This document shows positions 11,091-61,081 of a DNA stretch of 64,000 nucleotides, in pieces. The translations under genes and the position numbers were made by a program. Positions within the stretch are counted from its first letter, which is position 1, and every line of letters begins with the position of its first letter. The DNA lies in the NCBI RefSeq assembly GCF_000403355.2, contig NZ_KE159646.1:2035561-2099560 (forward strand). The letters are read 5' to 3'. Below the pieces are notes generated by a model, which saw nothing but the letters and a program-made list of their open reading frames with translations, ran no database searches and was not told the DNA's origin. This DNA comes from Adlercreutzia caecimuris B7. GTDB lineage: Bacteria; Actinomycetota; Coriobacteriia; Coriobacteriales; Eggerthellaceae.

Positions 11091-11111
11091 ACACAAACGG
11101 ACGGGGGCTCT

Positions 11112-13903: not shown

Positions 13904-13918
13904 CCCTAGTCCTCTCTC

Positions 13919-15679: not shown

Positions 15680-15681
15680 AG

Positions 15682-16299: not shown

Positions 16300-16321
16300 C
16301 AGATCACATGCCCCGCATGAA

Positions 16322-24919: not shown

Positions 24920-26096
24920 GAACCTGTCCGTTCACAAGCATAGGCAGTAGCCAATCACGCAAAGCAGATAGCCGATCAACTGCTTTTGCAACCAAAATCA
25001 ACTGATTGAAAATTGGGGCAACTTTATCGTAATACCGCGCTAAAATCAATTCGGTTGGCATGCTGAAGCAAGTTTCAGAAACGGTCACTTTGTTGATGTG
25101 CGGTTGCTGAGCGCCAGTTCTTAGCGTGAGATACCGAGGAACTTGAGATTGTACGAACGGATACAAAAACTCTGTATGCAAAGTCCGGTTCTCAAGAATT
25201 GCAACGACCGATTGGTTAAAACACGCATCTATAGCAAGGATGGAAGGACGTATATAACGAGTTATCGAGAGCAAGACCGACCCAGCGGGAGCGAAGGACG
25301 TTGCCGAATTCTCTACACCGGCCTTCGTAATGTTTTTCTCGGCCCTGAGAATCGGAGATACCGCAACCTCGGCCGAGTTCAGCCAAGGCATACCCCCGCC
25401 CCAAAACTCTCGAACTGAAGTGTCAGGGGTTCCACCCAGTCTAAGCTCGCACTGCTTCCCTATTTTTGTCACTTCCCATCCCTCAGGGATTTCGCGGTTG
25501 AGGGTTTCGTCGTAGACCATCTTGCCGCCGCTGGAGCGGTAGGGCTTGCCGTTCTCGTCGGGGAAATCGAACTGTGTGAACCAGTAATCGTAGATGAGAC
25601 GAGCGGTATCCTCCAACTCCGTCATTATCTTCTTGTTCAGCGCGATCTTGTCGTCGATGGAGCGAAGCACCTCTGCTATCTTTACCTGGGCCTCTCTGCC
25701 TGGAAGCTCAAGCTCAAAAGAAGCGAGATTCTCTTGGTTGAGTTTGGGCTGAGCGCTGCCAGTAATCAAGCCTCGTAGGTCAGAGGCCATCAGGTAATAA
25801 TAAACGTAACGAATATCGGCAGTGCCATTACCCCCGATAATATGCGCATGGTTGTTAACCCAAAACCGGCCTGTAGCCCATGTAACTATGGGTTCACTTA
25901 AAGTCTTTAAGTTGTTGCCGTCTTCGGCAACAAGGACATACTCCCCGTCAAAGATATAATCATCAATATAGTCGACTACACCTTGCGCGCCGTAATAGGG
26001 GTAAACCTTTTCACGATTAGCTCGTTCAGCGGAAGAAACTGGTATGCGCTTGTAATCGAGGATATCGACCGCTTGACCCAGTTTCACCTTATTCAT
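24909..26096 (-). CDS. hsdS: Type I restriction-modification specificity subunit HsdS
   Basis: A 395-residue S subunit with two target-recognition domains and two long helical conserved regions: first TRD about residues 1-140 (KLGQAVDILDYKRIPV, ending LNQENLASFELELPGREAQ), spacer helix AEVLRSIDDKIALNKKIMTELEDTARLIYDYWF, second TRD about 205-345 (GWEVTKIGKQCELRLGGTPD), then a final helix with VDRLSALRDWLLPMLVNGQV. It sets the DNA sequence read by the HsdM/HsdR complex. ATG 26096 overlaps hsdM by 8 bases. It appears intact. Confidence 0.92.
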   Translation of the reverse strand: MNKVKLGQAVDILDYKRIPVSSAERANREKVYPYYGAQGVVDYIDDYIFDGEYVLVAEDGNNLKTLSEPIVTWATGRFWVNNHAHIIGGNGTADIRYVYYYLMASDLRGLITGSAQPKLNQENLASFELELPGREAQVKIAEVLRSIDDKIALNKKIMTELEDTARLIYDYWFTQFDFPDENGKPYRSSGGKMVYDETLNREIPEGWEVTKIGKQCELRLGGTPDTSVREFWGGGMPWLNSAEVAVSPILRAEKNITKAGVENSATSFAPAGSVLLSITRYIRPSILAIDACFNQSVVAILENRTLHTEFLYPFVQSQVPRYLTLRTGAQQPHINKVTVSETCFSMPTELILARYYDKVAPIFNQLILVAKAVDRLSALRDWLLPMLVNGQVHVD

Positions 26097-27747: not shown

Positions 27748-30433
27748 TTAAGCGGCACGTCCTCTCTCGTCTACGTATTCCTTTGAGACGCAATCGGCAA
27801 CGCTCTTTACCTGAACGGCATTGTATTTCACGCCCGCGTCCTTGCAGGCGCCCACCACCAAGCGAAGCACCTGTCTGGCAAAAAAGGCAGCATTGCCCAA
27901 CACGTTGCGGTTGTTCATAACGGCCTCGTCGGCCTCTCGCTTCACACTGCTCAAAATGCCGAACATCGTGGCAGGGCTCGTGGTTAAGGGCGGCGGTGTT
28001 CGCATGGCCTGTTTGTGGACGCGCGCGAACTTCTCGTCGCCGTCGTACTTTTTAGCAAGAGCGGCGTTGCGCCGGTTGAGGTCATTCATCTTCGCACGAA
28101 GAGAATCGAGCTCCTTCGTGCTCTCCACCATGTCAGCGCTCGCCATCTCCTCAATGTTCACCTTTTCAAAGCGGCTCCTCAGCTCTTCAAGCAGGTTCAC
28201 ATACTCGGGATCTTTGACATCAAAGTTGTGAGCGAACGACTCATAGGTGCGCTTAAGTTTATCCTGGAATTCGTCGGCCAACTCTAGCTCCTCGCTGCCG
28301 ATGTTGCGGAAATGGAACTCCATCTTGCTCAGCAGTAGATTCACCGCGCCGGTCGACATATCCTCAAGCGCCAGGGCTTCTTTGTTGTTAATGGTCTGGA
28401 TGCGCAGGCTCACCTCACCCAGCATCTCACGGGCGCGCTCCACGTCGAACTTGTCGTAAAACTCTTCGCGGCCCTGCTGTTTGACCATGTTTCGCAAGTC
28501 CTTGTAACGGGCCAGCGCCGCGCGCAGCTCGTAAAGTATGGCCTTGTCATCGATGGTGCTTATCTCAGTCTTGAACTCCACCATGTTGTCGGTAGTGTAG
28601 GAGAACAGCAGGTCTTTGATCTTCGCCAGGTCGGTCTTGATGGTCTCGGGGTCCTCGAACAGACTGCTGTAATCTTTGGCGGCGTCGCCCAACTCCTCGG
28701 TGAGCTCGGCCAGGTAGGCCCGGTTAGTCTTGTCGTACTCTTCGGTAATGTCGGCGAAGTCCACCACGTAGCCGAAAGCCATATCCTTGTAGGGACGGTT
28801 CACGCGCGTGAGCGCCTGCAAGAGATTGTGCGCCCTGATGGTTCGGCACAGGTAGAGCTTCTTCAGTCGGTGCGCGTCGAAGCCCGTGAGCAACATGTTG
28901 AACACCACGAGGATGTTGATAGGGCTGTCGTCTTTCTTGAAGTTGTCGCAGATGGCGCGCCGAGTCTCCTTAGTGCCCTCATCGTGCAGGATCAGCTCGG
29001 AGTCAAGCCGGTGGCGCGATTCGGTCTCTCCGTTGATCACCAGCTCGGTGGAAACATCGGGGTCGAGCTCGGCCAAACGTGCGTAGATGGCGCGAGCCTG
29101 TGCGGAACTGCGCGCCACCACCATGGCGCCGATGCTCTCGTCGCCCAGGGTGATTTGGCTTTTCAGGTAGTCATCAACTATATAGTCGCACAAGGGATCC
29201 ACGTAGCTCTTGTGCGCGTACACCCTCTCCATGTCGACAAGCTTCTTCACCTCTTTAAGGTCTTTCAAAACCTCCTGCATCTTTAAACGGAACTCGGTCT
29301 TCACGGGCTCGCGCAGTAGCTTCAACGTATGGCCGTCGGCAATGGACTGGTTATAGAAGTACTTGTGTATGTAGGGTCCAAACACTTGCTTAGTGTCATT
29401 TCGGCCATCCTTGGTGTTTACCAACGGCGTGCCCGTAAGGGCGATGCGCACGGCCTCGCGGTCGGATGTGACCAGATTGGTCAAAAACGCGCCCCCATGC
29501 TTGTAGTCTCGGTGCGCCTCATCGATGAAGTAGACGCGCTGCACGTCCAGGTCGTAGTCGAAGTCGGCGACGACGGCTCCCTCATCGAACTTCTGAATGT
29601 TCACCACCGTGATTGCGGGCACGCGCCCAGCGCTCACCACACTCGTGTCTTCACCGATGCCCTTGAGCGAGCGGGCGAACTCCTCCTTGCTGTTTGCAAG
29701 GGTCACTACCGCGCCGCGCGCCTCGAACTCACCTTTAGCTTGGTCGGCCAGGTCGAGCCTATCGACGATGAAGAAAAAACGCGCAGCATGATTTTTCGCC
29801 TGGTAGTAATCGCGCAGGTAGCGCGTTAGGAAAAACGAGAGTGCCGTCTTGCCGCTGCCCTGCGTGTGCCAAACGACACCTTTAGTGCGCCCCTCTTCCA
29901 AGGCGCGGCGCACCGCCATGGTGGCGAAGAGCTGCGGGTAGCGCATGACGTGCTTCTCGGTATGCTTAATGCCCTCGTCGCTCACCTTCTCCACATAGGC
30001 GATGCCATAGTGCAGCAGGAACAGGAATCGCGCAGGCGAGAAGACAGATGTGATGATTCGGTTCGCGGGAGTCGTAGGGTTGATGGAGCTCTCAAGCTCC
30101 GCCGTACCGTAGATACTCGCCATATTGTTGTCGCGCAGGACGAACTTTTCTATCGCCGAATCGCGATCGGCCACAAGGCGCGCCATCCCCTCAGGATCCT
30201 CCTCGCGAAAACGGTTGAACTTCAGGCGCCCATAGGCGCTCGCCGCATAGAAGGAGCCTTGTATGGGCTTACGCTCCTCGTCGTCATATTCCTGGTTGTT
30301 GGAGAACACCATGATCTGCACGATGTTCGCGAAGTGATGGTAGGCCTCGTTCTTGAAGCGCACGTGCATCCGATCATGCTCGGCTAGAATGCCGTCCTTG
30401 TTGTTTTCGCGCTTCACTTCCATGAAGCCTAGA

Positions 30434-31499
30434 TGTTTAGTGCCAAGACGTTGTTTACATCCGGGTGGCGACAAATAGGGAGGCCTCCGCCAAGCTGTGA
30501 GTTGTCTAGATTCGCAGCGAAGGGGGCCTCCCATGCCATCGCATCCTAACGCAAAGCTGACCCCGAGGGGGCGGGAAACCCTCGTTTCCCGCATAGAATC
30601 CGGCGTCGGCGTGGCCGACGCCGCCCGCCAGATGGGCGTCAGCCGCCAGACCGCGTGCAAGTGGCTGCGCCGCAGCCGGCGCGGCGAGGGGCTGGCGGAC
30701 CGCAGCAGCCGGCCGCGCAGGCTCGCCAGGCTCACGCCGCCCGACGCCGAGGAGCGCGTCGCCGAGGCCCGCGCGTCCATGCTGCTCGCGCCGCTCGCGC
30801 TGGCGGCGGCCACCGGCGTCCCCGCCCGCACCTGCGCCAGGATAGTGGCCCGCCGCGGGATGCCGCGCCTCGCCGACGTCGACCGTGTGACCGGCGAGGT
30901 CCGGCGCCGCGGCCCCGCGACGCCGGTGCGCTACGAGCGCGAGGCCCCCGGCGAGCTGCTGCACGTCGACGTCAAGAAGGTGGCCCGCGTCCCCGACGGC
31001 GGGGGCTGGCGGGCGCGCGGCCGCGCCGGCCGGCCGAGGCCGGGGGCGGGCACGGCGTGCCTGCACGTCGCCGTCGACGACTTCAGCCGCGTGGCCTACG
31101 CCGAGCTGCTGCCCGACGAGCGCAAGGGCACCTGCGCGGCCTTCATGGGCCGCTGCCTGGGCTTCTTCGGGGAGATGGGCGTCTCGGTCGAGCGCGTGAT
31201 GACCGACAACGGGCCGGGCTACCGCAGCGGCGAGTTCAACGCGCTGCTCGAGGGGCGCGGGGTCCGCCACGTCTACACGAGGCCCTTCAGCCCCTGGCAG
31301 AACGGCAAGGTCGAGCGCATGAACCGCACGCTCGCCCAGGAGTGGCAGTACGGCAGGGCGTGGGAGAGCGAGGCGGGGAGGGCCGCCGCCCTCCCCGCCT
31401 TCATCGAGCATTATAATTGGGACAGGCCGCACAGCGCCTGCGGGGGCCTGCCGCCCATGTCGCGCATCGTCGGCGTAAACAACCTATTGGCACACAACA
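30434..31499 (+). mobile_element. IS481-type insertion sequence, copy 2 (1066 bp)
   Basis: Same length and ends as copy 1, offset by 11908 bases and in the same orientation. The target duplication is CCTAGA (30428-30433 and 31500-31505), differing from CCTAGG at copy 1 only at the last base. It inserts antisense to hsdR. Near identity between copies points to recent activity. Confidence 0.92.
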
Positions 31500-31504
31500 C
31501 CTAG
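30533..31504 (+). CDS. IS481-type DDE transposase, copy 2
   Basis: 323 residues, identical to copy 1 except that one glycine is replaced by alanine (AGRAAALPAF). The HTH, the rve core acidic residues and the ribosome site are intact. As in copy 1, the stop codon TAG (31502-31504) comes from the target duplication rather than from the element. Confidence 0.92.
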   Translation: MPSHPNAKLTPRGRETLVSRIESGVGVADAARQMGVSRQTACKWLRRSRRGEGLADRSSRPRRLARLTPPDAEERVAEARASMLLAPLALAAATGVPARTCARIVARRGMPRLADVDRVTGEVRRRGPATPVRYEREAPGELLHVDVKKVARVPDGGGWRARGRAGRPRPGAGTACLHVAVDDFSRVAYAELLPDERKGTCAAFMGRCLGFFGEMGVSVERVMTDNGPGYRSGEFNALLEGRGVRHVYTRPFSPWQNGKVERMNRTLAQEWQYGRAWESEAGRAAALPAFIEHYNWDRPHSACGGLPPMSRIVGVNNLLAHNT

Positions 31505-49117: not shown

Positions 49118-51301
49118 TTATCGGTCGGCGGGGGACGCATCCCCCTCTTCATCGGCGTCGATGCCCGAAAGGGCCGTGTGCTCGCATTCCAGCAGAGAGC
49201 CGCGCTCCTCGTCGGTCAGATCGCCGTAGAACACAAACCCGCTTCGACCGCCGCGCTTCTTGTGGTACAGCGCCACATCGGCCCGGCGGAACAGCTCGTC
49301 GTAATCGCGCACGCCGTCGTCGGTCGTGGCCACGCCCATAGAGACCGACAGCGGGAAACCCTCGAACTCGCCCTCAAGCGAGCCGTGGATACGCTCGATG
49401 AGGGGGCGCGGGTCTACGGGGCAATCCATGCATACGAGGAACTCATCGCCGCCCACGCGGGCCACCACGTCTTGGCCACGCACGCTTTCCTGCAGCTGCG
49501 AGGCGAAGTGCTGGAGCACCCTGTCTCCGAACTGATGGCCCCGGGTGTCGTTGGCCTGCTTGAAGAAGTCCAGGTCGCACAGCAGAAGTACATGTCGATC
49601 GGTATCCCGGTCGCACTCATCTCCTTCGCCTAAACGCTCGGTAATGACCTTGCGGGCGAACGCGCCGTTCACCACCTCGGTCAGCGGGTCGTGGTAAGCC
49701 TTGAACTGCAAGTCGCGCAGCTCGGCCTGACGATCGTCGATGTCGATGAACTTGCCGATAGAGCCCAGGTAGACCGGCTCGGCATCCTCCGACCACAGGG
49801 CGCGCACAAGCGCGTGCAGCCAACGCGTCTCGCCCTCAACGGTCACCTCCACCTCCATGTCGATGACCGGGTTCTCCGGAGTGGTGGCGCGCAGAAGCCG
49901 ATTGAGCTTCTCCAGATTCTCCCGACCAAACACAGCGCAGAATCCCTCGTCATGGTAGGGATCCATCACGATCTCGGGTAACCCGAGCTTGCGATCCCCC
50001 CAGTCGGAAAGCACGATCATAGGCGGCTCTTCGGTGAACTCGAACTGCACCTCATTGCTCATGGAGGCGAAGAAGTGGTACTTCATGCGCTCGTAATCCA
50101 GCAGCTCCAAGGTACGGCTGGAAGCGGTGGCCGAGCCCTCGTCCACATCGGTTCCGCGCGGGCGCAGGGCGTCAACGGAGATCTCGCGCCCCGTGACCCC
50201 GCGGTTCAGGCGGCTCTCCAAGTCGCCGGCCACGGCAGTGAGGCACTCCAGAATGAGCGGGTTGAAGGAGCCGCACTCCCCCTCGCGGATCATGCGCAGG
50301 GCCTCTTCATGGCTGAAGGGGGGCTTGTACACGCGCGGGCTCGTAAGGGCATCGTACACGTCGGCCAAAGCCACCACCTGGGCGGATATGGGAATCTCCT
50401 CGCCGGCCAGACCGTCGGGGTAGCCCCTCCCATCCCAGCGCTCGTGGTGCCAGCGGCAGATGTCGCGAGCCACGCGTACCAGCTTCTCGTCCTTGTACAG
50501 TTCCAAGTCGTCCAACATGTCGCTACCCACCGCCGAGTGGGTTTTCATGATGGCGAATTCCTCGTCGGTAAAGCGGCCCGGCTTGTTCAGGATTTCCTCG
50601 GGAATGGCAATCTTGCCGATGTCGTGCAGGCTGGACGCCATGGTGATGAGCGATATGTCCTCGGCCGTCAGCGGGTACTGGTCGGTCATGGACACCAGCT
50701 GGGTGAGGATCATCTCGGTCATGGCCTGCACGTTCAGCACGTGCATGCCGCTCTCGCCGTTGCGGAACTCCACGATGTGGGACAGGATGTACACCATGAG
50801 GTTGTTCGACTTCTCACGCTCGTAGATCTGATCGGCCACCATGCCCATGAGGGTGCGCTGCTTCTGATACAGCATGAGGGTGTTCATAACGCGGCGGCGC
50901 ACGATGTTCACATCGTAGGGGCGGTTGATGAAGTCGGTCACGCCCAACTCGTAGGCGCGCTCGATATAGGCGGCGTCGGACTCGGCGGACACCATGATGA
51001 CCGGGATGTCCTTGATCCAGCCGTTCCGGTTCATCACTTCCAGCACGTCGAAGCCGTTCATCTGCGGCATGACGTAGTCCAGCAGCACGAGCGAGATGCC
51101 CGTGCCTTCCTTCTGAAGCGCGGCCACGGCCTGCTTGCCGTCCTCGGCTTCCACAATGCGATAGGCGTCGCCGATCATATCAGCCAGAAGCGCCCGATTC
51201 AGCATGGAGTCGTCCACGATGAGAATCGTCTGCTTCTCGTTCAAGCTCGTAATGATGGCTTTCTCCTTCCATCCCGGGCTCGCCGGCGGCTCCGTCCCCA
51301 C
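49118..51301 (-). CDS. Response regulator with HD-GYP and GGDEF domains
   Basis: A 727-residue output protein. Receiver with ILIVDDSMLNRA and acceptor Asp in LLDYVMPQMNG (about residue 73); HD-GYP domain with HDIGK (about 226) and GRGYPDG (about 294); a PAS-like part; GGDEF with RVGGDEFLVCMD (about 618), intact. The two catalytic types would make and degrade cyclic di-GMP; either activity may be lost in practice, though both motifs are complete. Start is unclear: GTG 51301 is used, yet an AAGGAG site lies nearer to residue 17. Leads the relay operon. Confidence 0.88.
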   Translation of the reverse strand: MGTEPPASPGWKEKAIITSLNEKQTILIVDDSMLNRALLADMIGDAYRIVEAEDGKQAVAALQKEGTGISLVLLDYVMPQMNGFDVLEVMNRNGWIKDIPVIMVSAESDAAYIERAYELGVTDFINRPYDVNIVRRRVMNTLMLYQKQRTLMGMVADQIYEREKSNNLMVYILSHIVEFRNGESGMHVLNVQAMTEMILTQLVSMTDQYPLTAEDISLITMASSLHDIGKIAIPEEILNKPGRFTDEEFAIMKTHSAVGSDMLDDLELYKDEKLVRVARDICRWHHERWDGRGYPDGLAGEEIPISAQVVALADVYDALTSPRVYKPPFSHEEALRMIREGECGSFNPLILECLTAVAGDLESRLNRGVTGREISVDALRPRGTDVDEGSATASSRTLELLDYERMKYHFFASMSNEVQFEFTEEPPMIVLSDWGDRKLGLPEIVMDPYHDEGFCAVFGRENLEKLNRLLRATTPENPVIDMEVEVTVEGETRWLHALVRALWSEDAEPVYLGSIGKFIDIDDRQAELRDLQFKAYHDPLTEVVNGAFARKVITERLGEGDECDRDTDRHVLLLCDLDFFKQANDTRGHQFGDRVLQHFASQLQESVRGQDVVARVGGDEFLVCMDCPVDPRPLIERIHGSLEGEFEGFPLSVSMGVATTDDGVRDYDELFRRADVALYHKKRGGRSGFVFYGDLTDEERGSLLECEHTALSGIDADEEGDASPADR

Positions 51302-51401
51302 GAACCCGCCGGCCTTTCCTTCTCAGGCGCCCCCGCGCCTGTCGTTCCTTCTCGTATGGGAGAGCTGAAGCCCTCCCTTCATCCTGCGACCCCCGACAGC
51401 C

Positions 51402-52637
51402 CTAGTAGCGGCTGTCGAAGATGCGCTTGGTCTTCTTCTCGGACCGGGGCAGCTCGCCCATGGCCACACCCTTGGCCTCGGGCGTGCAGCCGAGCTTCGC
51501 CTTGAAGATGAGCGCGAGCTCCTCCTCGCAGCGGGCGAGCGCCTCGCCTTCAAGCGGCGTCTCGAACAGCACGGTGAGCACGTCGTGGCCGTTCACAGCC
51601 TCGATCATCACCTGGTATTCGGAGCTGGTGCCGTCGGTGGCCTTGATGACCTCCTCCACCTGGGCCGGGAACATGTTGCAGCCCTTCACCTTGAACATGT
51701 CGTCGGTGCGGCCGGTGAGCGTATCGATGCGCGGATGGCGGCTGCCGCAGGGGCAGGTACCGGGGATGATACGCGTGAGGTCGTGGGTGCGGTAGCGGAT
51801 AAGCGGGGCGCCCTGCTTGCGCAGCGTAGTGAGCACCAGCTCGCCTACCTCGCCGTCGGGCAGGTTCTCGCCGGTTTCCGGATCCACGATCTCGATGTAG
51901 ACGAAGTCGTCCCAGATGTGCATGCCGGCGTGGGCATCGCAGGAGATGCCGATGCCGGGGCCGTACACCTCGGTGAGGCCGTAGATGTCGTAGATCTCGA
52001 TGCCCAGCTCGTTTTGGATGCGGTTGCGCATCTTCTCGCCCCAGCGCTCCGACCCGATGACCCCCTTCTTCAGGTGAATCTTGTCGCGCAGGCCGCGCTT
52101 GGAGATTTCCTCGGCCAAAAGCAGGGCGTAGGAGCTGGTGGCGGTAATGACCGTGGATTTCAGATCCTGCATCATCTGGAGCTGCTTGTCGGTGTTGCCC
52201 GGACCCATAGGGATGGCCATGGCGCCCAAGCGCTCGGCGCCCAGTTGGAAGCCGATGCCGGCGGTCCACAGGCCGTAGCCCGGGGTGATCTGGATGCGGT
52301 CGAGGGGCGTGATGCCGGCCATCTCGTAGCAGCGGGCGAACTGGGTGGCCCAGTCGACGACGTCCTGCTGGGTGTAGGGGATGATGACGGGCGTGCCCGT
52401 GGTGCCAGAGGAGGAGTGGATGCGCACCACTTCCTCGTCGGGCACGGCCTGCAGGCCGAGCGGGTACACACCTCGCAGGTCGTCCTTCTCGGAGAAGGGC
52501 AGGCGTTCGAAGTCGGCCTGGGTGCGCACGGCGGCCACGTCGATACCTTCGAACTTCTTCGCGTAGAACGGCGAGCGTTCCTTGATGGTGGCCAGCTCGC
52601 TGGTGATAAGGTCGAGCTGTTCGGTCGTCATTTCCAT
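51402..52637 (-). CDS. Phenylacetate-CoA ligase-like enzyme (PaaK family)
   Basis: A 411-residue adenylate-forming enzyme: SSSGTTGTPVIIPYT (ATP loop), SERWGEKMRNRI, GLTEVYGPGIGISC, RTHDLTRIIPGTCPCGS and RTDDMFKVKGCNMFP. This family activates phenylacetate and related aryl acids (and indole acetate) as CoA esters, a common route in amino-acid fermenters. It stands alone; ATG 52637 has AAGGAG upstream. Substrate is not established. Confidence 0.88.
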   Translation of the reverse strand: MEMTTEQLDLITSELATIKERSPFYAKKFEGIDVAAVRTQADFERLPFSEKDDLRGVYPLGLQAVPDEEVVRIHSSSGTTGTPVIIPYTQQDVVDWATQFARCYEMAGITPLDRIQITPGYGLWTAGIGFQLGAERLGAMAIPMGPGNTDKQLQMMQDLKSTVITATSSYALLLAEEISKRGLRDKIHLKKGVIGSERWGEKMRNRIQNELGIEIYDIYGLTEVYGPGIGISCDAHAGMHIWDDFVYIEIVDPETGENLPDGEVGELVLTTLRKQGAPLIRYRTHDLTRIIPGTCPCGSRHPRIDTLTGRTDDMFKVKGCNMFPAQVEEVIKATDGTSSEYQVMIEAVNGHDVLTVLFETPLEGEALARCEEELALIFKAKLGCTPEAKGVAMGELPRSEKKTKRIFDSRY

Positions 52638-52948
52638 AGGTGCGCGTCTCTCCTTGGGCACAGTTTTTCGAGTATGCTCCATTCTAACAAATCGGCAACA
52701 AAAGAAACGCGTGATTCACCACAATCTCGCAAGGGAAAAACGCAAGGTCGCAAGCGGAAAGCTGACCTTGACGGTTGGGATTAGGACGCGGCGACGGAAG
52801 CGTTAGAGCTCCCGAGAGAAACCGAGAGACGTCAATAGCCCAGACATCCTATTCTGCCGCGAGCTTGTAGCCGACGCGCCAGACGGTGAGCAGATAGCGG
52901 GACTCGCAAGGCCTCGACCTCCTAGCGAGCCGAGACCGAAGAGCGAGC
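52638..52948. other. Intergenic region with a relic of an OmpR-type regulator gene
   Basis: 311 bases. Most is featureless, but 52863-52902 matches 56639-56678 (36 of the first 38 bases) and its minus strand encodes RYLLTVWRVGYKLAAE, the very end of an OmpR-family winged helix. See the finding on the flanked cassette. Confidence 0.6.
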
Positions 52949-53482
52949 TTACTTGAGCAAATCTGCGAGAGAGAATTCCCCTTTGGGAATGCGAGCAAGA
53001 GCGGCATAAGAGCGGATTGCCTGCACAAGCGATTCTGCTGTCCAATAGCTCTCGAGAAATGTCCTCGATTTCACATCCCCGAATTTCAATTTCTGCATAC
53101 AGTATTCGCTCGGCTTCATCGAGGACTTGTGATGTTTGCTGTAATCAGCGAAGCAGTCCTCACGCACGATAATTAGCATCTCTATCTCGGGATGAGTGTA
53201 GAAGTTGAACACGGGGTAGCGCTCGCGATACAAGCGGCCCAACGCAAAATTCTCACGCCGAGAATCAAGCACTCGCAGAATTACCAGAGGCCAGTCGTAA
53301 TCGTAGTTTAGATACTGCTCTTGAATTTGCGCCGCACTCCTCGTGCGAGTTACACCTATCACGGCGTCTGACGCAACGATAAGCCTGTTCTCGTTCAACA
53401 ACGTCTCAACAAGATACTGTTTGAACGTTCCTTCGCAAACGAACAGAACATGCGCCCGATCAGGAAGGGCCAGATCACTCAT
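52949..53482 (-). CDS. Small TOPRIM/RloB-like partner of an ATPase
   Basis: 177 residues. The start HVLFVCEGTFKQYLVETLL resembles the TOPRIM-type acidic motif (VCEG), followed by VILRVLDSRRENF and HPEIEMLIIV, in positions where RloB/AbiLii-like proteins have DxD and their conserved hydrophobic strand. Similarity is at motif level only. It overlaps the preceding ATPase gene by 8 bases, so the two are coupled. ATPase plus small nuclease-like partner is the layout of RloAB/AbiL-type defence pairs. Confidence 0.5.
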   Translation of the reverse strand: MSDLALPDRAHVLFVCEGTFKQYLVETLLNENRLIVASDAVIGVTRTRSAAQIQEQYLNYDYDWPLVILRVLDSRRENFALGRLYRERYPVFNFYTHPEIEMLIIVREDCFADYSKHHKSSMKPSEYCMQKLKFGDVKSRTFLESYWTAESLVQAIRSYAALARIPKGEFSLADLLK

Positions 53483-54659
53483 GATGCAAGCCCCCAGTTA
53501 TCGATTTCGCATAGCTTCTCAGGGCAGCAACGTCCGCGAAGCGCGGTGCCGTCCCTTTGATGTAGTTCGAAAGGAACACTTCGCTCTTTTTGTTTTCGAT
53601 GCGATCGACGCGGTCGCTGTACTTAACGATGCATGTTCTTCCATCAGCTTCACGGGCAAGAAAGTATACACAGTCTTTACGGTGAATAGAATCGAGTATC
53701 TCAGGGTAATGGGTGGTAAAAATAAGAACAGCCCCATAGGGGTTTGACTCCTTGCACACGAAAAGGTCTACGATGACATGTACCAGCTGCTTGTTGAGGT
53801 GGTTCTCGATCTCATCAAGTAAAAAATAACCCCCGCAAGCAAGGGAGAAAACAGCCGACTGAACGAGGCTGAGTCCACGCAATGTGCCTGAAGACAAGAC
53901 GTGCTCCAGTTCCTTGCGTGACAACAGCGCCGGCCGCTCATCGCGTTTGAACTTCAGTTCGAATAGATTCCCGTCCTCCTGCACCCGAAGAAATTCGATA
54001 TCGGCGTCAAATGCTCGAAGAATATCGGTCACATCGAGGAGATTGTCACTGGTAGGTAGCGGCGCGTCTCCCGACGCGTGATATGCAGAAGCGATCGTTC
54101 CAGATTGTGAGGTCATGATGCTTACGCTATCAGCAAGAAACATCTTGCTGGCATGGTCAAGCGTACTTCTGCGCATGATTTCTTCCGAATGGTCAATGAG
54201 CGCATCAGCCCCCTGCCTAAAAAGCGCTTTCGTGGGAGCTCCCTTAAAACGATAAAGTACCTCCTCCTCAAAAATGAAGTTTCCCCGTGCCAATCTAGGC
54301 GCGGAGTCACGATAGGCCAAAACGGAGTCGAGAATAAAAACCTGTCCCTCCTCCCACAGTACCGCTTTCATGCGGGGCGGAGCGTCGAACAGGTCTTCGA
54401 CGTGGCCGGCAAAAGGAGAGTGCAACGTAAGGCCTCCTTGGACCACCGAGAGGGCAAGGGCCATGAGCCGAAGCGCCGTCGTTTTGCCCGAGGCATTAAT
54501 GCCAGCCAAAGCAACAACATTATTGATGGCAAGCGGCTTTTCCAAAAGCGTCACCGATTCATCACTAGCAGGCACTTTGTCGCTGGCGAACAGATCGAGT
54601 TCGAATATTCCATTTTCGAACAGTTTTACATGGTTAAAAGATACAGATAGCAGCTTCAT
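53475..54659 (-). CDS. AAA-type ATPase (SMC/OLD-like) of a two-gene system
   Basis: A 394-residue ATPase with Walker A AGINASGKTTALRL (about residues 51-64), a signature-like region near LSSGTLRGLSLVQS, Walker B GGYFLLDEIENHLNK (about residue 290) and a His-switch FTTHYPEILD. This is the AAA_15/AAA_21 type used in OLD, RloA, Septu and AbiLi systems. Its ATG lies one base after a 25-bp hairpin that includes the ribosome site. The partner gene downstream overlaps by 8 bases. Low GC compared with the core. Confidence 0.8.
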   Translation of the reverse strand: MKLLSVSFNHVKLFENGIFELDLFASDKVPASDESVTLLEKPLAINNVVALAGINASGKTTALRLMALALSVVQGGLTLHSPFAGHVEDLFDAPPRMKAVLWEEGQVFILDSVLAYRDSAPRLARGNFIFEEEVLYRFKGAPTKALFRQGADALIDHSEEIMRRSTLDHASKMFLADSVSIMTSQSGTIASAYHASGDAPLPTSDNLLDVTDILRAFDADIEFLRVQEDGNLFELKFKRDERPALLSRKELEHVLSSGTLRGLSLVQSAVFSLACGGYFLLDEIENHLNKQLVHVIVDLFVCKESNPYGAVLIFTTHYPEILDSIHRKDCVYFLAREADGRTCIVKYSDRVDRIENKKSEVFLSNYIKGTAPRFADVAALRSYAKSITGGLHHE

Positions 54660-54660
54660 G

Positions 54661-54717
54661 AGGGCTCCAGATTGTATTTTGAACATTTTTTCTGTTCAAA
54701 ATACAATCTGGAGCCCT
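54661..54717 (-). promoter_or_regulatory. Perfect 25-bp hairpin overlapping the ATPase ribosome site
   Basis: Arms 54661-54685 and 54693-54717 are exact reverse complements with a 7-base loop. On the transcript (minus strand) the stem ends one base before the start codon, and the GGAG Shine-Dalgarno motif is part of its 3' arm, so the site would be sequestered. The same palindrome could be a DNA operator. Confidence 0.75.
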
Positions 54718-54814
54718 TGCTGTCAAGCCGGGTTAGCAAATCGAGCAGATGAGAATACCCATTCGTTCTTTTCTTTTTCTTTAAATTGACTTTAAAAAAT
54801 CTTTCAGAATACTA

Positions 54815-54842
54815 TTGACAGTAAAGTTGTTGTATAGATAAT
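54815..54842 (+). promoter_or_regulatory. Promoter of the NYN gene
   Basis: TTGACA (54815-54820) and GATAAT (54837-54842), spacer 16 bases. The start of transcription would be near 54849, about 34 bases before the ATG. Confidence 0.7.
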
Positions 54843-54882
54843 AGAGTCATCAGGTAAATACTGAATAAAGAAAGGTTCTACA

Positions 54883-55377
54883 ATGAATAAGCGGTTTGAG
54901 CTCATGATGAAAAAGGAACAGCGAAAGCTCGTTGTCGTAGACATCGAAAACGTTGTCGGAACGGGCATGCTCACCAAAGAAACCGTTGCGCGCCATATGC
55001 GACACATCGCATCAAAGTGCCACTTGTCAGACAAAGATATCCTGGTGATCGGCGTCAGCCATTCGAAGAACGCTTTCGTAGTGGCCCTCCAAGTTCCGAA
55101 CGCTCGCATCGTTCTGCGCAATGGAAAAGACGGCGCTGACCTTGCACTTAAAACTGTGCTCCGCAAAGAGCGCGTAGAGGAACGTTTCCAAGAAGTTGTC
55201 ATTGTTTCCGGCGATCATGCTTTTGCCGAAGAGGCCCAGGCGCTCGAGAACAAGGGGACACACGTCACAATTGTCGCGCGGCGCGGAACGCTTTCCCGCA
55301 AGCTCGCCCATAGCGCCTCTCGTTTGCTGCGCCTACGCTATCGACACGACAACGTGTCTCAGGAAAAGGCGGCTTAG
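54883..55377 (+). CDS. NYN-domain (PIN-like) nuclease
   Basis: A 164-residue NYN domain: VVVDIENVVG (first Asp about residue 20), VLRNGKDGADLALKTVL (acidic pair) and EVVIVSGDHAFAEEAQ. NYN proteins are metal-dependent RNases related to PIN. It has its own promoter and an AAAGG site and is divergent from the ATPase pair across 223 bases. It may act as an additional effector of that cassette; no antitoxin is adjacent. Confidence 0.72.
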   Translation: MNKRFELMMKKEQRKLVVVDIENVVGTGMLTKETVARHMRHIASKCHLSDKDILVIGVSHSKNAFVVALQVPNARIVLRNGKDGADLALKTVLRKERVEERFQEVVIVSGDHAFAEEAQALENKGTHVTIVARRGTLSRKLAHSASRLLRLRYRHDNVSQEKAA

Positions 55378-55508
55378 ATGCAAGCCGGCAAGACAAACTT
55401 CCCCCTCTTCCCCGAGAGCATGATTCGGCCTCCTCCAGTCCTTAAAATTGTTGTTCTTTATATTGTATTGAAAAAGTATTTATTCATAACTATAATCAAG
55501 GAGCTTTA

Positions 55509-56504
55509 ATGAGCACTTCATCTCCTATTCGCACTACCCAGAACACGATGAGTCCCGTCGGCGAAACAAAACATCTCAATGGAAGGCTTGCAATGGCAGA
55601 GCGCAACGAACAGAGCTTGGTGAATTTCAAAATCGACGTAGTAGTAAAAGAAGCCGCTGAGGCAACTCTATCCAGCATGGGCATCAGCACCTCAGCCTAC
55701 CTTGGCATGTGCTTGCGCCAGCTCGCGCAAGAGAGGAAACTGCCCTTTTCCTTCGAGGCAGACCCAGAGTTCTGGATTGCGGAAGCCCAAGTGGGCAGAG
55801 CAGCAGAGCTTTTACGCTCAGGCCTTTTCGAAAAAACGATAGAACTAAGGAAGCGAGTGGGCGAACACATAATCGCCGAGACCAAGAAGATCCGCCCTCG
55901 ACTCGTTGAAGATCTGCAGGCTTGCAGGCCCTCCATGAATCCCGACGACGACCTCGAGCGCACCTGTATGGAGGGTTTTACAGCCTTCTACGTAAGCTTC
56001 GACGCTGAAATTGGCAGCAAGAACTTTAATGAGCTGGTTCGATATTTCTCAAACCGCGAAATGACATCCTTTTTGGAAATCATCCCTTCTCCTTATCCCT
56101 GGGTCAAAGCTGTGCAAGAAACTCTCTCCACACTTTGCTCTGAGGAAAGTCGTTTCCTTGTTCAAAGCATTGTTGATTTCTGCACCGCAGAAGAAATCGA
56201 CAGCAGCAGCACAGGAAAGATGCCGGCACAAGAAGCGGTCCTCGATCTCGCTAGCAAGTTGGACGAAATAATCGACACCGTTCTTGACGAATACGAAGAA
56301 CATGGGAGCAGCTTTTCCCTCAGATTTGTTGGCGCCGAATCTTACATCACCATCGTGCAGAAGGCTCTTGCCGACAAAAAGGAAGCCCTCGAACGCTGGG
56401 AGGAGTGCGGTATGGCTGCAAAACTGGAAGAGCAGCTGGAAGAGCGAAAACAAAAAGCTGACGAAGACTTCAAGAAACTCCTAGCCCTTATGGACAGAAA
56501 CTAA
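55509..56504 (+). CDS. RelB/DinJ-like N-terminal domain fused to a long helical region
   Basis: 331 residues. About residues 33-85 look like a RelB/DinJ antitoxin ribbon-helix-helix unit: SLVNFKIDVVVKEAAEATLS, SSMGISTSAYLGMCLRQL, then LPFSFEADP. The remaining 240 residues are helix-rich and end in a charged coiled coil (RWEECGMAAKLEEQLEERKQ). Normal RelB/DinJ antitoxins have about 90 residues, so this is a large extension. No toxin gene is next to it. ATG 55509 follows AAGGAG (55497-55502). Function is unknown; a repressor or orphan antitoxin is plausible. Confidence 0.55.
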   Translation: MSTSSPIRTTQNTMSPVGETKHLNGRLAMAERNEQSLVNFKIDVVVKEAAEATLSSMGISTSAYLGMCLRQLAQERKLPFSFEADPEFWIAEAQVGRAAELLRSGLFEKTIELRKRVGEHIIAETKKIRPRLVEDLQACRPSMNPDDDLERTCMEGFTAFYVSFDAEIGSKNFNELVRYFSNREMTSFLEIIPSPYPWVKAVQETLSTLCSEESRFLVQSIVDFCTAEEIDSSSTGKMPAQEAVLDLASKLDEIIDTVLDEYEEHGSSFSLRFVGAESYITIVQKALADKKEALERWEECGMAAKLEEQLEERKQKADEDFKKLLALMDRN

Positions 56505-56624
56505 CGTCCGAAAACCTCCTTAGCCCAGAAGTGCCGGTGAAGTTTAACCTCACCGGCACATTGCTTTTCCCAGCATTCCGTGGCTCTGAGCTACGGCGTA
56601 GGCTTCCACAGCAGAGGCCTCGGT

Positions 56625-56935
56625 TTACCCGCCTGCGGGCTTGTAGCCGACGCGCCAGACGGCGAGAAGATAGCGGAGCTCGCTGGGGCTGTCCTCGATT
56701 TTCTCGCGAATTTTTCGCATGAACACCGTGATGGAGTTCTCGTCCACCTCGGAGGCCTCTCCCCACAGATGCTCGTAAATGCGGCGACGCGTGAAAACCT
56801 CGCCAGGGCTCTCGGCCAAAAGGGAGAGGATTTCGAACTCCTTGGCAGTGAGCGGCACCAACTCGCCCCGCAGACGCACCTCAATTTCCCCTGGGACACG
56901 CGGGGTGCCGGGACGAGCCGAAGGGCATACAATCT
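56625..56935 (-). pseudogene. OmpR-family response regulator, C-terminal fragment
   Basis: An open frame without start encoding a winged-helix DNA-binding domain only (VPLTAKEFEILSLLAESPGE, RRIYEHLWGEASEVDENSIT, YLLAVWRVGYKPAGG). The receiver and linker are missing; the frame begins after a stop near 56935. The 3' end sequence is repeated at 52863-52902. It is a remnant, with no promoter or ribosome site. Confidence 0.75.
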
Positions 56936-57233
56936 ATCAACCGTTTCGGCTGCCAGTTGGAGCCCTAAACGAAGAATCCCCGAGATCAGCCAAATTTCCC
57001 AGGTAGGCCCTCGCTTTGCGCTCGTTTCCCTAGCCGCCTGAAAGGCTGCCTTACCGGGGCCGTCATACGCGTGCGCCTTGCTCCGTAGAGTGCCACTGCG
57101 CGCCCGTTCCATCCTATTGAACTTAATAAGGTGGAACGTTAACCGCAAGAGAGGGAATCATCGGTCTTATCAACTCTATATACTATACGCTATACTTTCT
57201 TGTATCTTTACGCAAGCTGATAAGGTGATCGCC

Positions 57234-57722
57234 ATGGCAACAGCAACATTGGAAAAACCGAAGAAGGCGAAGAGCGCGAAAAAGGCCCCGAGCAAGGCCG
57301 CACCCAAGCGAGCAGCGGCGAAAAAGAATGTTTCGAATGTAGGCGTGCTTTCCCCGGCGAAAACCGTGCAGATGAACGTGCGCATCGATGCCGCCCTGAA
57401 AAAGCAGGGCGATCGCGCCTTCGAGCGCATCGGGAGCTCCCCCTCGGAAATGGTACGCGCCTTGTGGCGCTATGCGAGCCGCCATGCCAATGAACCAGAG
57501 ACGCTTCGACACTTGATGGAAGAACTCGAAGGAGAAAGCGAAGCGCAGGACGTCATCTTGGAGCCGACGCGCCGAGGATGGGAAATTATGGAGGAAGCAT
57601 ATCACGCCCTGGGTATAGCCCCGGCACCTTTGCCCGAGGATGATGAGGAGCGCCTTGCCTACTACGACGAGCTGAAGGAAGAAGCATGGCTAGATCGCCA
57701 GAGAGAACGGGGGCTCCGATGA
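57234..57722 (+). CDS. RelB/DinJ-like antitoxin with a basic N-terminal tail
   Basis: 162 residues. The first 45 are rich in Lys and Ala (KAKSAKKAPSKAAPKRAAAK), like a histone-tail or DNA-binding extension; the RelB unit follows (QMNVRIDAALKKQGDRAFERIG, SEMVRALWRYAS). Its TGA overlaps the ATG of the PIN toxin, and AAGGTG precedes the start. Antitoxins of this kind repress their own operon. A TATACT box lies at 57191-57196 with palindromic TATAC repeats around it. Confidence 0.72.
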   Translation: MATATLEKPKKAKSAKKAPSKAAPKRAAAKKNVSNVGVLSPAKTVQMNVRIDAALKKQGDRAFERIGSSPSEMVRALWRYASRHANEPETLRHLMEELEGESEAQDVILEPTRRGWEIMEEAYHALGIAPAPLPEDDEERLAYYDELKEEAWLDRQRERGLR

Positions 57723-58219
57723 TACAAGCCCCATCCTCAATTCTCATCGATACCAATGTATGCCTTGACAATTTTCTCGCAGATCGCGATGGCTCGCAAA
57801 CCTCACAAGTGCTCATAGACGCTTGCCGGGAAAAGGGCGTCGACGTTCTCTTCTCCATCTTCACCTTACGCGATGTTTACTACCACGTTGGAGCCCATCT
57901 CAAACGGCAAATTCGCGAAGCGGGCGAGGACGTTACTTCTGAGCGCTCGGCCATCGCAGAACAGTTCGCGTGGCAGGCAATGCTCAGCCTGAACGAACAG
58001 GGGACAGCAGTTCCCGCCGACACCTCCGACGTAACGGTCGCCCGATATTTCCACCAAGTCCATCGCGATTTTGAAGACGATCTCGTTTTGGCGGCCGTGG
58101 AACGATCGGGAGCCGACTACCTCATCACGAACGACAAAAAGCTCCGCGCCCATGCGCCCGTGGCGGCGATCACCCCCGCCGACATGCTCACCTTGTTGAA
58201 GGCCGCCGACGATGCATAA
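57719..58219 (+). CDS. PIN-domain toxin
   Basis: 166 residues, PIN fold: SILIDTNVCLDNFL with the first Asp, an acidic residue in FEDDLVLAAVERSGADYLIT, and NDKKL. Toxins of this type cleave RNA. ATG 57719 overlaps the antitoxin stop by 4 bases and has GGGGG, so antitoxin-toxin order and coupling are standard for a type II system. All three acidic active-site residues seem present. Confidence 0.78.
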   Translation: MIQAPSSILIDTNVCLDNFLADRDGSQTSQVLIDACREKGVDVLFSIFTLRDVYYHVGAHLKRQIREAGEDVTSERSAIAEQFAWQAMLSLNEQGTAVPADTSDVTVARYFHQVHRDFEDDLVLAAVERSGADYLITNDKKLRAHAPVAAITPADMLTLLKAADDA

Positions 58220-58478
58220 GAGTTTGCCCCTCCAATATGGAAGAGGCAAACTACGCGAGACCATCACCCTTCAATAGCGGCGTGGCCAATAGAGGGGTAC
58301 CTGCACCGATCGACACACCGCGTCGTTCAGAAGAATCGGGCGAAATCGAAGCATCTGATAGAGAGATACGCAGGGGCAGTTCTGAGCATTCAGCACCGCC
58401 CCTAGCGCCTCATGGCTACTCGAAGCCTTCCCCAGGCCTCAGGCTCCGGCGGCCGCGGGGGAGAGCGGAATTGACCTC

Positions 58479-59135
58479 TTACTCGAAGCTCGCGAGGAAG
58501 GGCTTCTCCTGGGCGAGATAGGGGGTGCACAAGTTGGGGTTGGCCACCCACTCGCCGCAAGCCGGCTCGAAGAACTTGTCGATGTAGAGGAAGTGGAACG
58601 GCGTGGACATGTACTTGCCCAAGAAACTTGTGGGCTCGTCGAAGTCGCACTCGTAGGCGTAGGCCCACTCATCGGTGCCGGAGCTTTCCACCACCGGGGC
58701 GAACTTGCAGTTGCGCAGGCCGGGCACATGGGCGCACATATCGTTCATGTGAGCCTCCATCTTCTCCACCATGGCCGGATCGGCCCCCTCGCGAATGCTG
58801 AAGAACAACACGCGATGGCAGGTGGATTTCTCCTTCTCCTGAAGGGTGAGGGTACCCTCGCCGAAAGCGATGAACTCGCAGTTGGCCACCGATGCGCTGT
58901 CGTTCATGAGCGCCGTAAGCGCACCCCAGGCCTCGCCGTCCTTGGCCGCCTCGTAGGCGGCCTGATCGGCAAAGCCCACCTCGCAGAAGAAGTTGCCGCC
59001 GGGCATGGGAGGCTCGAGCACCATATCGGCCAGAAACACCGGGCTCACGGCCTCGGCGGCCGCCTTGGCATCGGCCACGTACTGCTCGGCGTTGGCCCCC
59101 TCGGCGAGGGTCACCGAAAATACCGCATTAAACAT
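58479..59135 (-). CDS. Dabb-like cytoplasmic protein, cassette 2
   Basis: 218 residues, paralogue of 436-1095: MFNAVFSVTLAEG, a second unit from CHRVLFFSIREG, CDFDEPTSFLGKYM and a final TPYLAQEKPFLASFE. The ATG overlaps the preceding Tat gene by 8 bases; the frame is open further upstream but that part is not coding. Cytoplasmic; substrate unknown. Confidence 0.6.
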   Translation of the reverse strand: MFNAVFSVTLAEGANAEQYVADAKAAAEAVSPVFLADMVLEPPMPGGNFFCEVGFADQAAYEAAKDGEAWGALTALMNDSASVANCEFIAFGEGTLTLQEKEKSTCHRVLFFSIREGADPAMVEKMEAHMNDMCAHVPGLRNCKFAPVVESSGTDEWAYAYECDFDEPTSFLGKYMSTPFHFLYIDKFFEPACGEWVANPNLCTPYLAQEKPFLASFE

Positions 59136-59667
59136 TGTTGAGCACCTCCATGTAGCCTTCGGGAGCCGAATAGACGCGATCGTTGGACACCAGGCGATCG
59201 CGGATGTCGGTCCACCACTGCACGTACTCGGGGTTGTAGCGCGTACCCGACGAGTAGGCCCATGCCTCCTGCACGATGTCGCCCATGGTCCACTCGATCT
59301 CGATGATGTTGCTGTCGGTGTCGAGCCACATGGCCGGTGCCACGGTAGCACGCTTGAACCGCCAGCCCGCGCCCTCGATGAGCGGCTTCATGTTGGCCAT
59401 AAAGTCGTCCAGCACGGCCTTCCCCTCGCCAGGCTTGGCCACCAGGCGGTCCACGATGTAGATGACGCTCTCCTCCCCGGTATCGGCCAGATCGGCCGCG
59501 GGCTCAGACGCAGGTTCGGGCGCGGACTCGGGCGCCTCCTCCTTCGGCTCCGGTGCGGCAGCCGTCTCGGTGGCGCATCCGGCCAGAACGCCGAGGGAGG
59601 CCACCGTAGCGCAGGCTCCGGCGGCCACGAACGAGCGGCGCGAGAGCTGCGATGGGAGTTGTCTCAT
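59128..59667 (-). CDS. Tat-exported Dabb-like lipoprotein, cassette 2
   Basis: 179 residues with a Tat leader (SRRSFVAAGACATVASLGVLAGC) that ends in a lipobox, a Glu/Pro/Ala linker, and a Dabb-like part (IYIVDRLVAKPGEGKAVLDDFM, MWLDTDSNIIEIEWTMGD). Same gene order and motifs as 1092-1637. ATG 59667 has AAAGGGG upstream; the longer frame to 59730 is not coding. Divergent from the LuxR gene at 59885. Confidence 0.62.
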   Translation of the reverse strand: MRQLPSQLSRRSFVAAGACATVASLGVLAGCATETAAAPEPKEEAPESAPEPASEPAADLADTGEESVIYIVDRLVAKPGEGKAVLDDFMANMKPLIEGAGWRFKRATVAPAMWLDTDSNIIEIEWTMGDIVQEAWAYSSGTRYNPEYVQWWTDIRDRLVSNDRVYSAPEGYMEVLNNV

Positions 59668-59884
59668 AGCATATCCCCTTTCTTGACAAACAAACCTCCA
59701 ACAGATAGGCTCGGCCCCAGGTTTTCGCACTATCTTTCTTCCACAAACATACTGCTGAGACCCAGGACCGAACCTACTGGAAGCATATCCAGCGGGCCGG
59801 AAAATGTCTGTCTCACGAAAGCGGGTACTTCAGCGTTTTCCCTCGTCCAAAAGATATGATTTGCTGATTTCAAGGGAGGGAACG

Positions 59885-61081
59885 ATGCAAATCAACCTAC
59901 GGGCCCACGGGGTCAACCGCATGCAGGCGGCGAAAATCGCCCTGGCCGATGCCATTATCTGGCTATGGCTGCACCAAGCAAACTACGACAGCCTCTTCAC
60001 CGCGTCCTTCATCGAGCCGGCCATGCTGGCGCTGCCGAGCTTCGTGCTCAGCGGCGCCCTCGTCATTGGCATCACCTGGGCCCGATGGGATCGCATCCCC
60101 CGGACACTGCGCGTGGGAACCGCCTTGGCAGCCGCGGCCGTGGGGCTTGGGCTCACCTTGCTGCCCCAGCTGCCCGCCGCCCCGGAGTTCGCCCACGCGG
60201 CCCTGGTTCTGGGCTTGGCCGTGCTGTGCGGTTTTGCAGCCCTGCTGCGCTTGGAAACTCTCGCGAAATGCGATGATTTCTCCACCCTGTCTGTGGCGCT
60301 TTCGGGCTCATTGCTGCTGTTCTATCTGTTGAACCTGGTGCTCTTACTCGTCCCCCGGCCTGTCTACGACTTCCTCGTCGTTATGGCGCCCCTGGCCATG
60401 CTCTTCGGCACGAATACGCCTGCGCCGTCCTGCAAGCGCCTCGGACCTCTGCCCAAGAAAGTGCGCCTGTCGCCCCCGAGCATCGCGCCCTGCCTGACCG
60501 GCGCCGCGACGGGCCTGGTGGTGGCCCTCGGCACGGTGTCCATGGCCACATCCCCCGGCCAGCTGTTTGCGCATCCCGCGCCCTTGTTTCTCATCTCCCA
60601 GCTGCTGTTCATCATGCTCGGCGTCATAACAGCCTTCGGGATCGACCTGCGCAAGGCCAGCTACTTTGCCCTGCTGAACTTTAGCTGGGGCTTCGGCATC
60701 GTGGCGGGAACCCTTGTCCGCGACCAGTTCCCCCTGATCCCCGAAGCTTTTCTCGTAGACCTGTCGTCCTTCGTCTGCCTGCTGACCCTGGTAGGGTTCT
60801 TCGCCTTCTCCGGTGTGTGGATCAATACCTTGGGGCGCACGGCCAGCATGGGGCAGGAGATGGCCCTGGAAGAGGTGGCGCAGGAAGCCGGGCTCACCAA
60901 GCGGGAGACCGAGGTGACGGCCCTGCTGCTAGAGGGCCGCTCCCTGCGCATCGTGCAGCAGGAGCTGTTCATCTCCGAGGGCACGGCCCGCACCCACGCC
61001 AAGCGCATCTACGCGAAGCTGGGCGTCCATTCCAAGCAGGAACTTATCGACTATTTCAAGCGTCACCTGGCGGAAAGGTAG
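59885..61081 (+). CDS. Membrane-embedded LuxR-family regulator, cassette 2
   Basis: 398 residues: about ten membrane segments, then a LuxR HTH (VAQEAGLTKRETEVTALLLE, EGTARTHAKRIYAKLGVH). Paralogue of 1882-3051, with which it shares the MQ(I/V)(N/H)L start, and the HTH end KQELID. ATG 59885 behind GGGAGGG. It is followed, on the opposite strand, by the flavin reductase gene and two hairpins. Confidence 0.86.
   Translation: MQINLRAHGVNRMQAAKIALADAIIWLWLHQANYDSLFTASFIEPAMLALPSFVLSGALVIGITWARWDRIPRTLRVGTALAAAAVGLGLTLLPQLPAAPEFAHAALVLGLAVLCGFAALLRLETLAKCDDFSTLSVALSGSLLLFYLLNLVLLLVPRPVYDFLVVMAPLAMLFGTNTPAPSCKRLGPLPKKVRLSPPSIAPCLTGAATGLVVALGTVSMATSPGQLFAHPAPLFLISQLLFIMLGVITAFGIDLRKASYFALLNFSWGFGIVAGTLVRDQFPLIPEAFLVDLSSFVCLLTLVGFFAFSGVWINTLGRTASMGQEMALEEVAQEAGLTKRETEVTALLLEGRSLRIVQQELFISEGTARTHAKRIYAKLGVHSKQELIDYFKRHLAER

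Follow-up and report, generated by a model that had tools for sequence, protein, structure and literature searches.

A low-GC cassette between two copies of a regulator gene end

The cassette described here lies in a window of 64,000 nucleotides from Adlercreutzia caecimuris B7 (contig NZ_KE159646.1, positions 2,035,561 to 2,099,560), the term window denoting throughout the whole stretch of DNA that was analysed. It carries four genes: a minus-strand pair encoding an ABC-type ATPase and its 177-residue partner, followed by a gene for a NYN-domain protein and a gene for a RelB-domain protein with a long C-terminal extension, hereafter RelB-fusion (Table 1). The G+C content is 0.499 between the repeats that bound the cassette and rises to 0.624 and 0.642 outside them. 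The repeats themselves, at 52863-52900 and 56639-56676, are identical at 36 of 38 bases, within a wider pair (52859-52914 and 56635-56690) that agrees at 48 of 56 positions (86%). They constitute the longest direct-repeat family listed for positions 50000-60000 of the window, and are read here as homologous coding sequence on the strength of orthologues in congeners rather than of a chance estimate for the match. On the minus strand both copies code for the final residues of a winged helix, that of a two-component response regulator of the OmpR type. The left copy closes with the tail GYKLAAE-stop, as do, read by eye, the regulators of the congeneric genomes G005 and G003 (comparison genomes and loci bear G and L numbers); the right copy lies inside an 84-residue frame that matches Trans_reg_C (PF00486, expectation value (E) 2.9e-24), closes with GYKPAGG-stop and belongs to a regulator piece that is itself truncated. 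A preliminary description, made from the letters of the DNA, had reported both the near-identical 38-base-pair segments (36 matches) encoding the end of an OmpR winged helix and a low-GC cassette with an ATPase pair, NYN and RelB-domain genes between them; alignment and the PF00486 match confirm the former, G+C content and Pfam matches the latter. The lower G+C content and the accessory genes extend rightward to ~58.2 kilobases (kb), where a second RelB-like/PIN pair has a G+C content of 0.574.

Table 1. Features of the cassette and of its immediate surroundings, in window coordinates
Feature	Position	Strand	Basis
Left copy of the regulator 3' end, last ~16 codons; adjoins paaK	52859..52907	-	Repeat and alignment
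177-residue partner, predicted effector; EG, D73 and THPEIEML motifs	52949..53482	-	Alignment; without Pfam or PADLOC family
ABC/AAA_21 ATPase, AbiLi/AriA-like; overlaps the partner gene by 8 nucleotides	53475..54659	-	Pfam and PADLOC
Perfect 25-base-pair inverted repeat with 7-nucleotide loop; 1 nucleotide before the ATPase start codon; covers GGAG	54661..54717	-	Repeat search
NYN-domain protein, 164 residues, predicted ribonuclease; passenger	54883..55377	+	Pfam NYN, 2.8e-6
RelB/DinJ-domain protein with long C-terminal extension, 331 residues; passenger	55509..56504	+	PF04221, 7.6e-7
Right copy, truncated C-terminal part of an OmpR-type regulator, GYKPAGG-stop	56625..56883	-	PF00486 match
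Stretch located upstream of the molybdopterin oxidoreductase in G005; marks a deletion in the window lineage	56930..57055	.	Alignment to G005
Second RelB-like/PIN toxin-antitoxin pair of the variable locus	57234..58219	+	Related sequence in G005 and G002

Probable insertion at the 3' end of a regulator gene

In both G005 and G003 a single intact regulator gene lies directly beside paaK. The G005 regulator is preceded by frames that read, by eye, as a histidine kinase and an Fe-S protein, together with a molybdopterin oxidoreductase, beyond which lies a RelB-like/PIN pair whose counterpart in the window is the second such pair of Table 1. On the right side of the window the last ~250 bases of the regulator are all that is kept, and the alignment then jumps to the stretch that follows, which in G005 is found on the far side of the oxidoreductase. 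A G005-like locus thus appears to have been split at the regulator 3' end by the cassette, its middle having been lost separately. The contents between paaK and a Dabb-domain gene differ among congeners, so that the locus is, to judge from the genomes compared, variable in the genus; where the alignments of paaK and of the Dabb-gene stretch end, the two are separated by 51 bases in G002 and by 54 in G004. The insertion itself can be regarded as ordinary accessory-gene turnover in a variable locus.

When the flanks are joined (the window up to 52907 and from 56684, the junction point being chosen inside the repeat), their alignments to G005 and G003 run across the junction ungapped, with 43 and 42 identities of 48 on the left and 166 and 169 of 207 on the right; the alignment to G005 contains one single-base gap farther along. 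It is very probable that the cassette interrupts a single regulator gene, now decayed, and within the explanation that we favour the 3.8-kb stretch, foreign in appearance, would have been acquired horizontally. The insertion at a regulator 3' end that the preliminary description had suggested is supported by the uninterrupted regulator of G005 and G003 and by the joined flanks. The circumstance that it had named as its own refutation, two pseudogenes of independent origin from different regulators, is made unlikely by the fact that both sides of the window map to a single G005 locus.

The same comparison bears on a reading in which the repeat reflects paralogy and not insertion, tandem regulator paralogues having once flanked the cassette and each having decayed to its 3' end. 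Such a history would agree with the different C-terminal tails, with the presence of two other paralogues in the genome (72-80% identity over the matched parts), and with a similarity between the two window copies (44 of 49 bases) that is no higher than that between the left copy and G005 (likewise 44 of 49). It is unlikely in view of the single regulator found at the site in G005 and G003, of the mapping of both window flanks to one G005 locus (in G003 the contig stops before this can be seen), and of the gap-free junction. Insertion of the cassette is, from the alignments, the likely explanation.

It is a separate matter whether the repeats are attachment sites, as the preliminary description had proposed. 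Site-specific integration at the regulator 3' end, by an integrase since lost or acting from elsewhere, would leave direct repeats at the 3' end of a gene as left and right attachment sites (attL and attR), and the changed right tail (GYKPAGG) beside a usual left tail and flank would be expected if the gene-side tail had arrived with the element. However, family-library scans of the four cassette genes found no integrase, relaxase or excisionase family (the other frames of at least 60 residues overlap these genes or are short, and were not scanned singly), and the repeat is degenerate, its copies sharing no excess identity over that of the left copy with G005. Past a 5-base gap the homology of the left copy continues weakly, with scores reached by 29 of 2000 shuffles for G007, 178 for G005 and 168 for the right copy; this marginal extension would suit a decayed piece of a gene rather than a sharp core. 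A role of the repeats as attachment sites is thus possible, but we consider site-specific integration doubtful.

The ATPase and its partner form a two-gene unit

The ATPase gene lies directly upstream of the partner gene, on the same strand, in 83 of 88 loci, and because the pair is so kept the two are a real two-gene unit. The loci comprise the best 80 of 171 confirmed relatives in the species-genome collection and eight distinct viral loci, two scans having found the partner on 6 and on 7 viral contigs, respectively. The five misses are L090 and L126, where the partner is less than 150 bases from the end of the sequence, L151, where the ATPase is 1.5 kb away, L157, where the ATPase was not found, and L160, whose frames are shortened. 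The window ATPase matches AAA_21 in Pfam (2.4e-13) and the AbiLi and AriA profiles of PADLOC (1.4e-32 and 1.3e-14), and both profiles are matched by all 36 ATPase sequences scanned. For alignment, 62 loci were picked for length, an adjacent ATPase and mutual difference; the partner alignment holds 61 relatives and the window (L143 was left out), and the ATPase alignment holds 35 relatives and the window.

Relatives of the partner are present in 4 of 100 related genomes, the own genome included, and on three plasmids, two from Bifidobacterium and one from Ligilactobacillus, in each of which the ATPase gene adjoins. Phage records yielded no match for the partner and, for the ATPase, one Klebsiella prophage (two records, 24% identity over 56%). 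Two contexts are prophage-like: in L091 an HNH gene and a small-terminase gene flank the pair, and in L090 a tyrosine integrase gene comes after the partner, which is at the contig end. The wider neighbourhood was assessed from 140 of 148 selected proteins at 50 loci (the eight left out lay mostly at locus ends), through the first 25 of 77 PADLOC families and the first 25 of 142 Pfam families. These neighbours include four phage integrase, four resolvase and two large terminase matches, with BrxL, AbiEi, a defence reverse transcriptase and a type IIG enzyme as singletons.

The inverted repeat in front of the ATPase gene would form an RNA hairpin with a computed energy of -49.8 kcal/mol (z -10.1, for a stretch of 101 nucleotides), and the GGAG that it covers is likely the ribosome-binding site of the ATPase gene. 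No such hairpin was evident by eye in the stretches upstream of the ATPase in six relatives.

A putative nuclease effector outside the AbiLii model and Pfam

Eight residues of the partner (E17, G18, D73, T96, P98, E99, I100 and E101) are invariant in all 62 aligned sequences. The partner keeps its E, D and PEIE positions in an RloB-like order, RloB proteins showing E-G, D and N-P-x-F-E, and in a profile alignment with RloB (12 of 14 loci, L186, which has a stop, and L177 being left out) the three motifs are in register over 96 columns. Of 150 column shuffles, two attained the score of this alignment, both over fewer columns. Motif order and partnership with the ATPase make it probable that the partner is a Toprim-type nuclease effector. 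A profile comparison with OLD Toprim domains (13 of 14 loci, L204 left out) aligned the first motif only, over 19 columns, shuffled controls scored higher, and it was not used.

The window partner matches no Pfam family at E up to 1, and a sequence search of solved structures returned no significant match for it. None of the 62 partners matched the AbiLii model (RloB-like, PF13707), which is missing from the complete set of 11 families hit at E up to 1; the same model recognised all five RloB control proteins. PF13707 was reached by one of the 62, at 0.018. DUF4435, the family of AriB, is absent from the 25 Pfam families, of 27, that were listed for the 62 partners, the model having no positive control, and it was found in none of 120 related genomes, so that no comparison set was available. 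Pairs of an ABC/AAA ATPase and a small nuclease are a known kind, and the present effector family is, by these profile scans, outside both the AbiLii model and Pfam. The AlphaFold2 model of the partner is confident, with a predicted local distance difference test score (pLDDT) of 94. Its structural matches are weak. Foldseek gave a best E of 0.0097, the OLD Toprim chain 6nk8 being fifth at 0.051; the 50 rows of VIA-align contain no AriB or RloB chain, which excludes nothing.

A probable abortive-infection pair

We propose, as a reading that we hold somewhat more probable than not, that a cassette lies in the regulator 3' end of the variable paaK-Dabb locus and combines an abortive-infection pair like AbiL or PARIS with two separate accessory genes. 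By analogy with known systems, its functional core is probably this pair, whose effector the profile scans assign to no family. AbiL resembles it in placing the ATPase gene first and a small effector second, with a short overlap or gap, in an ATPase that shares the AbiLi model with that of the window, and in the order E / D / P-x-x-E of the RloB motifs; it differs in its effector, to judge from the AbiLii model. PARIS likewise joins an ABC ATPase, AriA, whose profile the window ATPase matches, to a separate small predicted Toprim-type effector, AriB; the window effector differs in having no match to DUF4435. AriB is longer than the window's partner. The pairs in which a TOPRIM_OLD protein is neutralised by an AAA protein (NetFlax D29 with D44, D60 and M70) follow the same two-gene logic (PMC10440598). 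With Gabija and OLD (GajA and P2 Old; PMC10568477) the cassette shares the logic of an ABC ATPase with a Toprim nuclease, and it differs in having two separate genes and no helicase among the cassette genes.

We hypothesise that the ABC-type ATPase would hold the 177-residue partner inactive and, on sensing a phage protein, would set it free. The freed partner would probably act as a metal nuclease of the Toprim type, through E17, D73 and E99/E101, and would cleave host nucleic acid (RNA, perhaps transfer RNA (tRNA), by analogy with AriB), and growth would stop before the phage matures. We infer sensing, release, nuclease activity and substrate by analogy, with PARIS as a model, in which AriA keeps AriB inactive until it senses a phage protein and then releases it to cut tRNA (PMC12409363). 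The AbiLii of Fusobacterium nucleatum is reported to be toxic in Escherichia coli (PMC3985639), and two TOPRIM_OLD toxins are described as neutralised by AAA proteins (PMC10440598).

Several observations weigh against this proposal. The AbiL study also reports that Lactococcus AbiL proteins were non-toxic in E. coli and that the Fusobacterium AbiLi did not neutralise AbiLii (PMC3985639). At the level of sequence, the 62-member partner alignment gives weak scores and no convincing Pfam or PADLOC match, and the profile alignment with RloB is itself weak (E 0.12, probability 0.5%), a probability that at least 3 of 60 shuffles reach, with values up to 2.4%. The second motif of the partner reads D-S-R and not D-x-D. 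Four residues after the invariant E17, the window partner has K21 in place of the E found in the other 61 of 62, and because of this substitution the window copy could be altered. At the level of structure, Foldseek found no match at E up to 0.001 in the PDB or BFVD. The best VIA-align hit is 2p62, an uncharacterised protein, at a Z of 7.5, in a range that the tool calls common; receiver-like folds reach a Z of up to 6.6, and the OLD Toprim chain 6nk8, with a Z of 6.2, 144 aligned residues and a root-mean-square deviation of 4.5, is within the range of unrelated folds. Among the matches listed, only some of the genes beside the relatives belong to defence or to mobile elements; metabolic and transport families also occur.

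It can also be envisaged that the pair has no role in defence and is a plasmid or prophage maintenance toxin-antitoxin unit, or a housekeeping pair of the OLD type. AAA-TOPRIM pairs are reported to act as toxin-antitoxin pairs in E. coli (PMC10440598), and an archaeal class of OLD ATPases is described as acting in the cell cycle (PMC12796447). Such a role is rather improbable given the patchy distribution of the partner, the prophage-like positions beside integrase or terminase genes, and the kinship of the ATPase with AbiLi and AriA. The latter two points are also those that would support a defence role for the abortive-infection pair, the part of the preliminary description's suggestion of a defence module that appears to stand.

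A further proposition, which we advance tentatively and hold less probable than the reading above, is twofold: that the partner represents an undescribed effector family of AbiLi/AriA-type ATPases, distinct from RloB, DUF4435 and OLD Toprim, prophage-carried and distributed in Actinobacteria, Clostridia, spirochaetes and others, and that the hairpin would be an extra translational switch able to tip the balance between ATPase and effector. Literature searches found no paper on the family; they did not cover the NetFlax data sets, which possibly contain it. Among Toprim-type effectors that accompany ABC ATPases, tRNA cleavage is known for one, AriB, and function is open for many others. The partner is a small predicted effector that lends itself to testing. 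As both the AbiLii model and Pfam miss it, defence finders built on such models may overlook or half-annotate this widespread pair in gut bacteria.

The NYN and RelB-fusion genes as probable separate passengers

The PF04221 match of the RelB-fusion is above cut-off, and its TIGR02384 score (41.6 bits) is below the cut-off of 45.65. No RelE/YafQ-type toxin gene stands beside it, the NYN gene being upstream and the regulator remnant downstream, and its single-sequence model is uninformative (pLDDT 43). At E up to 0.001 it has matches in 78 of the 395 genomes of the order, nearly all of them short hits confined to the RelB domain; four are better than 1e-20, the own genome included, and the identities of the three other strong relatives are 53%, 31% and 55% in the parts that match. 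One relative (383 residues) lies directly downstream of a Fic-domain gene (L046, 670-2987). A search of plasmids gave no match for the RelB-fusion.

NYN matches are found in 13 of the 395 genomes, again with the own genome included. At two NYN loci whose frames were read, a frame of ~480 residues comes next. NYN relatives also occur on 10 plasmids, and in 2 of 3 inspected an N-6 DNA methylase gene follows. On a Gordonia plasmid (L206, 3106-5624) and a Corynebacterium plasmid (L207, 2971-5425), the NYN gene is directly upstream of the N-6 DNA methylase gene; the two may possibly form a two-gene unit of their own. Neither the NYN nor the RelB-fusion has relatives in viral contigs, in a single-protein scan that reaches close relatives only.

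We infer that the NYN and RelB-fusion genes are accessory genes distinct from the pair, which came to lie at this site as well. The preliminary description had suggested that the cassette could be an undescribed defence module. If all four genes formed one module, the NYN protein would be a second nuclease and the RelB-fusion its antitoxin. The two genes are indeed co-oriented with 131 bases between them, and acidic motifs are, by eye, kept in the NYN protein. In contrast to the pair, which recurs, the four genes do not travel together in the loci searched. Relatives of NYN and RelB-fusion are found in 0 of 94 ATPase-pair loci, the window serving as a control in which all four genes were found. 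Conversely, the pair is in 0 of 15 of their loci (12 NYN and 3 RelB-fusion, of 2.1-3.7 kb each, with at most ~1.5 kb per side), and neither passenger is in the loci of the other. The set of 13 NYN genomes and that of four strong RelB-fusion genomes have the own genome alone in common; G141, G162 and G165 combine NYN with a weak RelB-only match, on different contigs. With NYN relatives standing beside N-6 DNA methylase genes on the plasmids mentioned above, a single four-gene module is very improbable.

Other features of the window

An insertion sequence-like element is present twice, at 18526-19596 and 30434-31504, its 335-residue transposase-like frame being identical at 1007 of 1008 bases. 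The stretches 11000-17000 and 24000-30000 have a lower G+C content (~0.49-0.58, much of the window being at 0.62-0.67) and may represent other islands.

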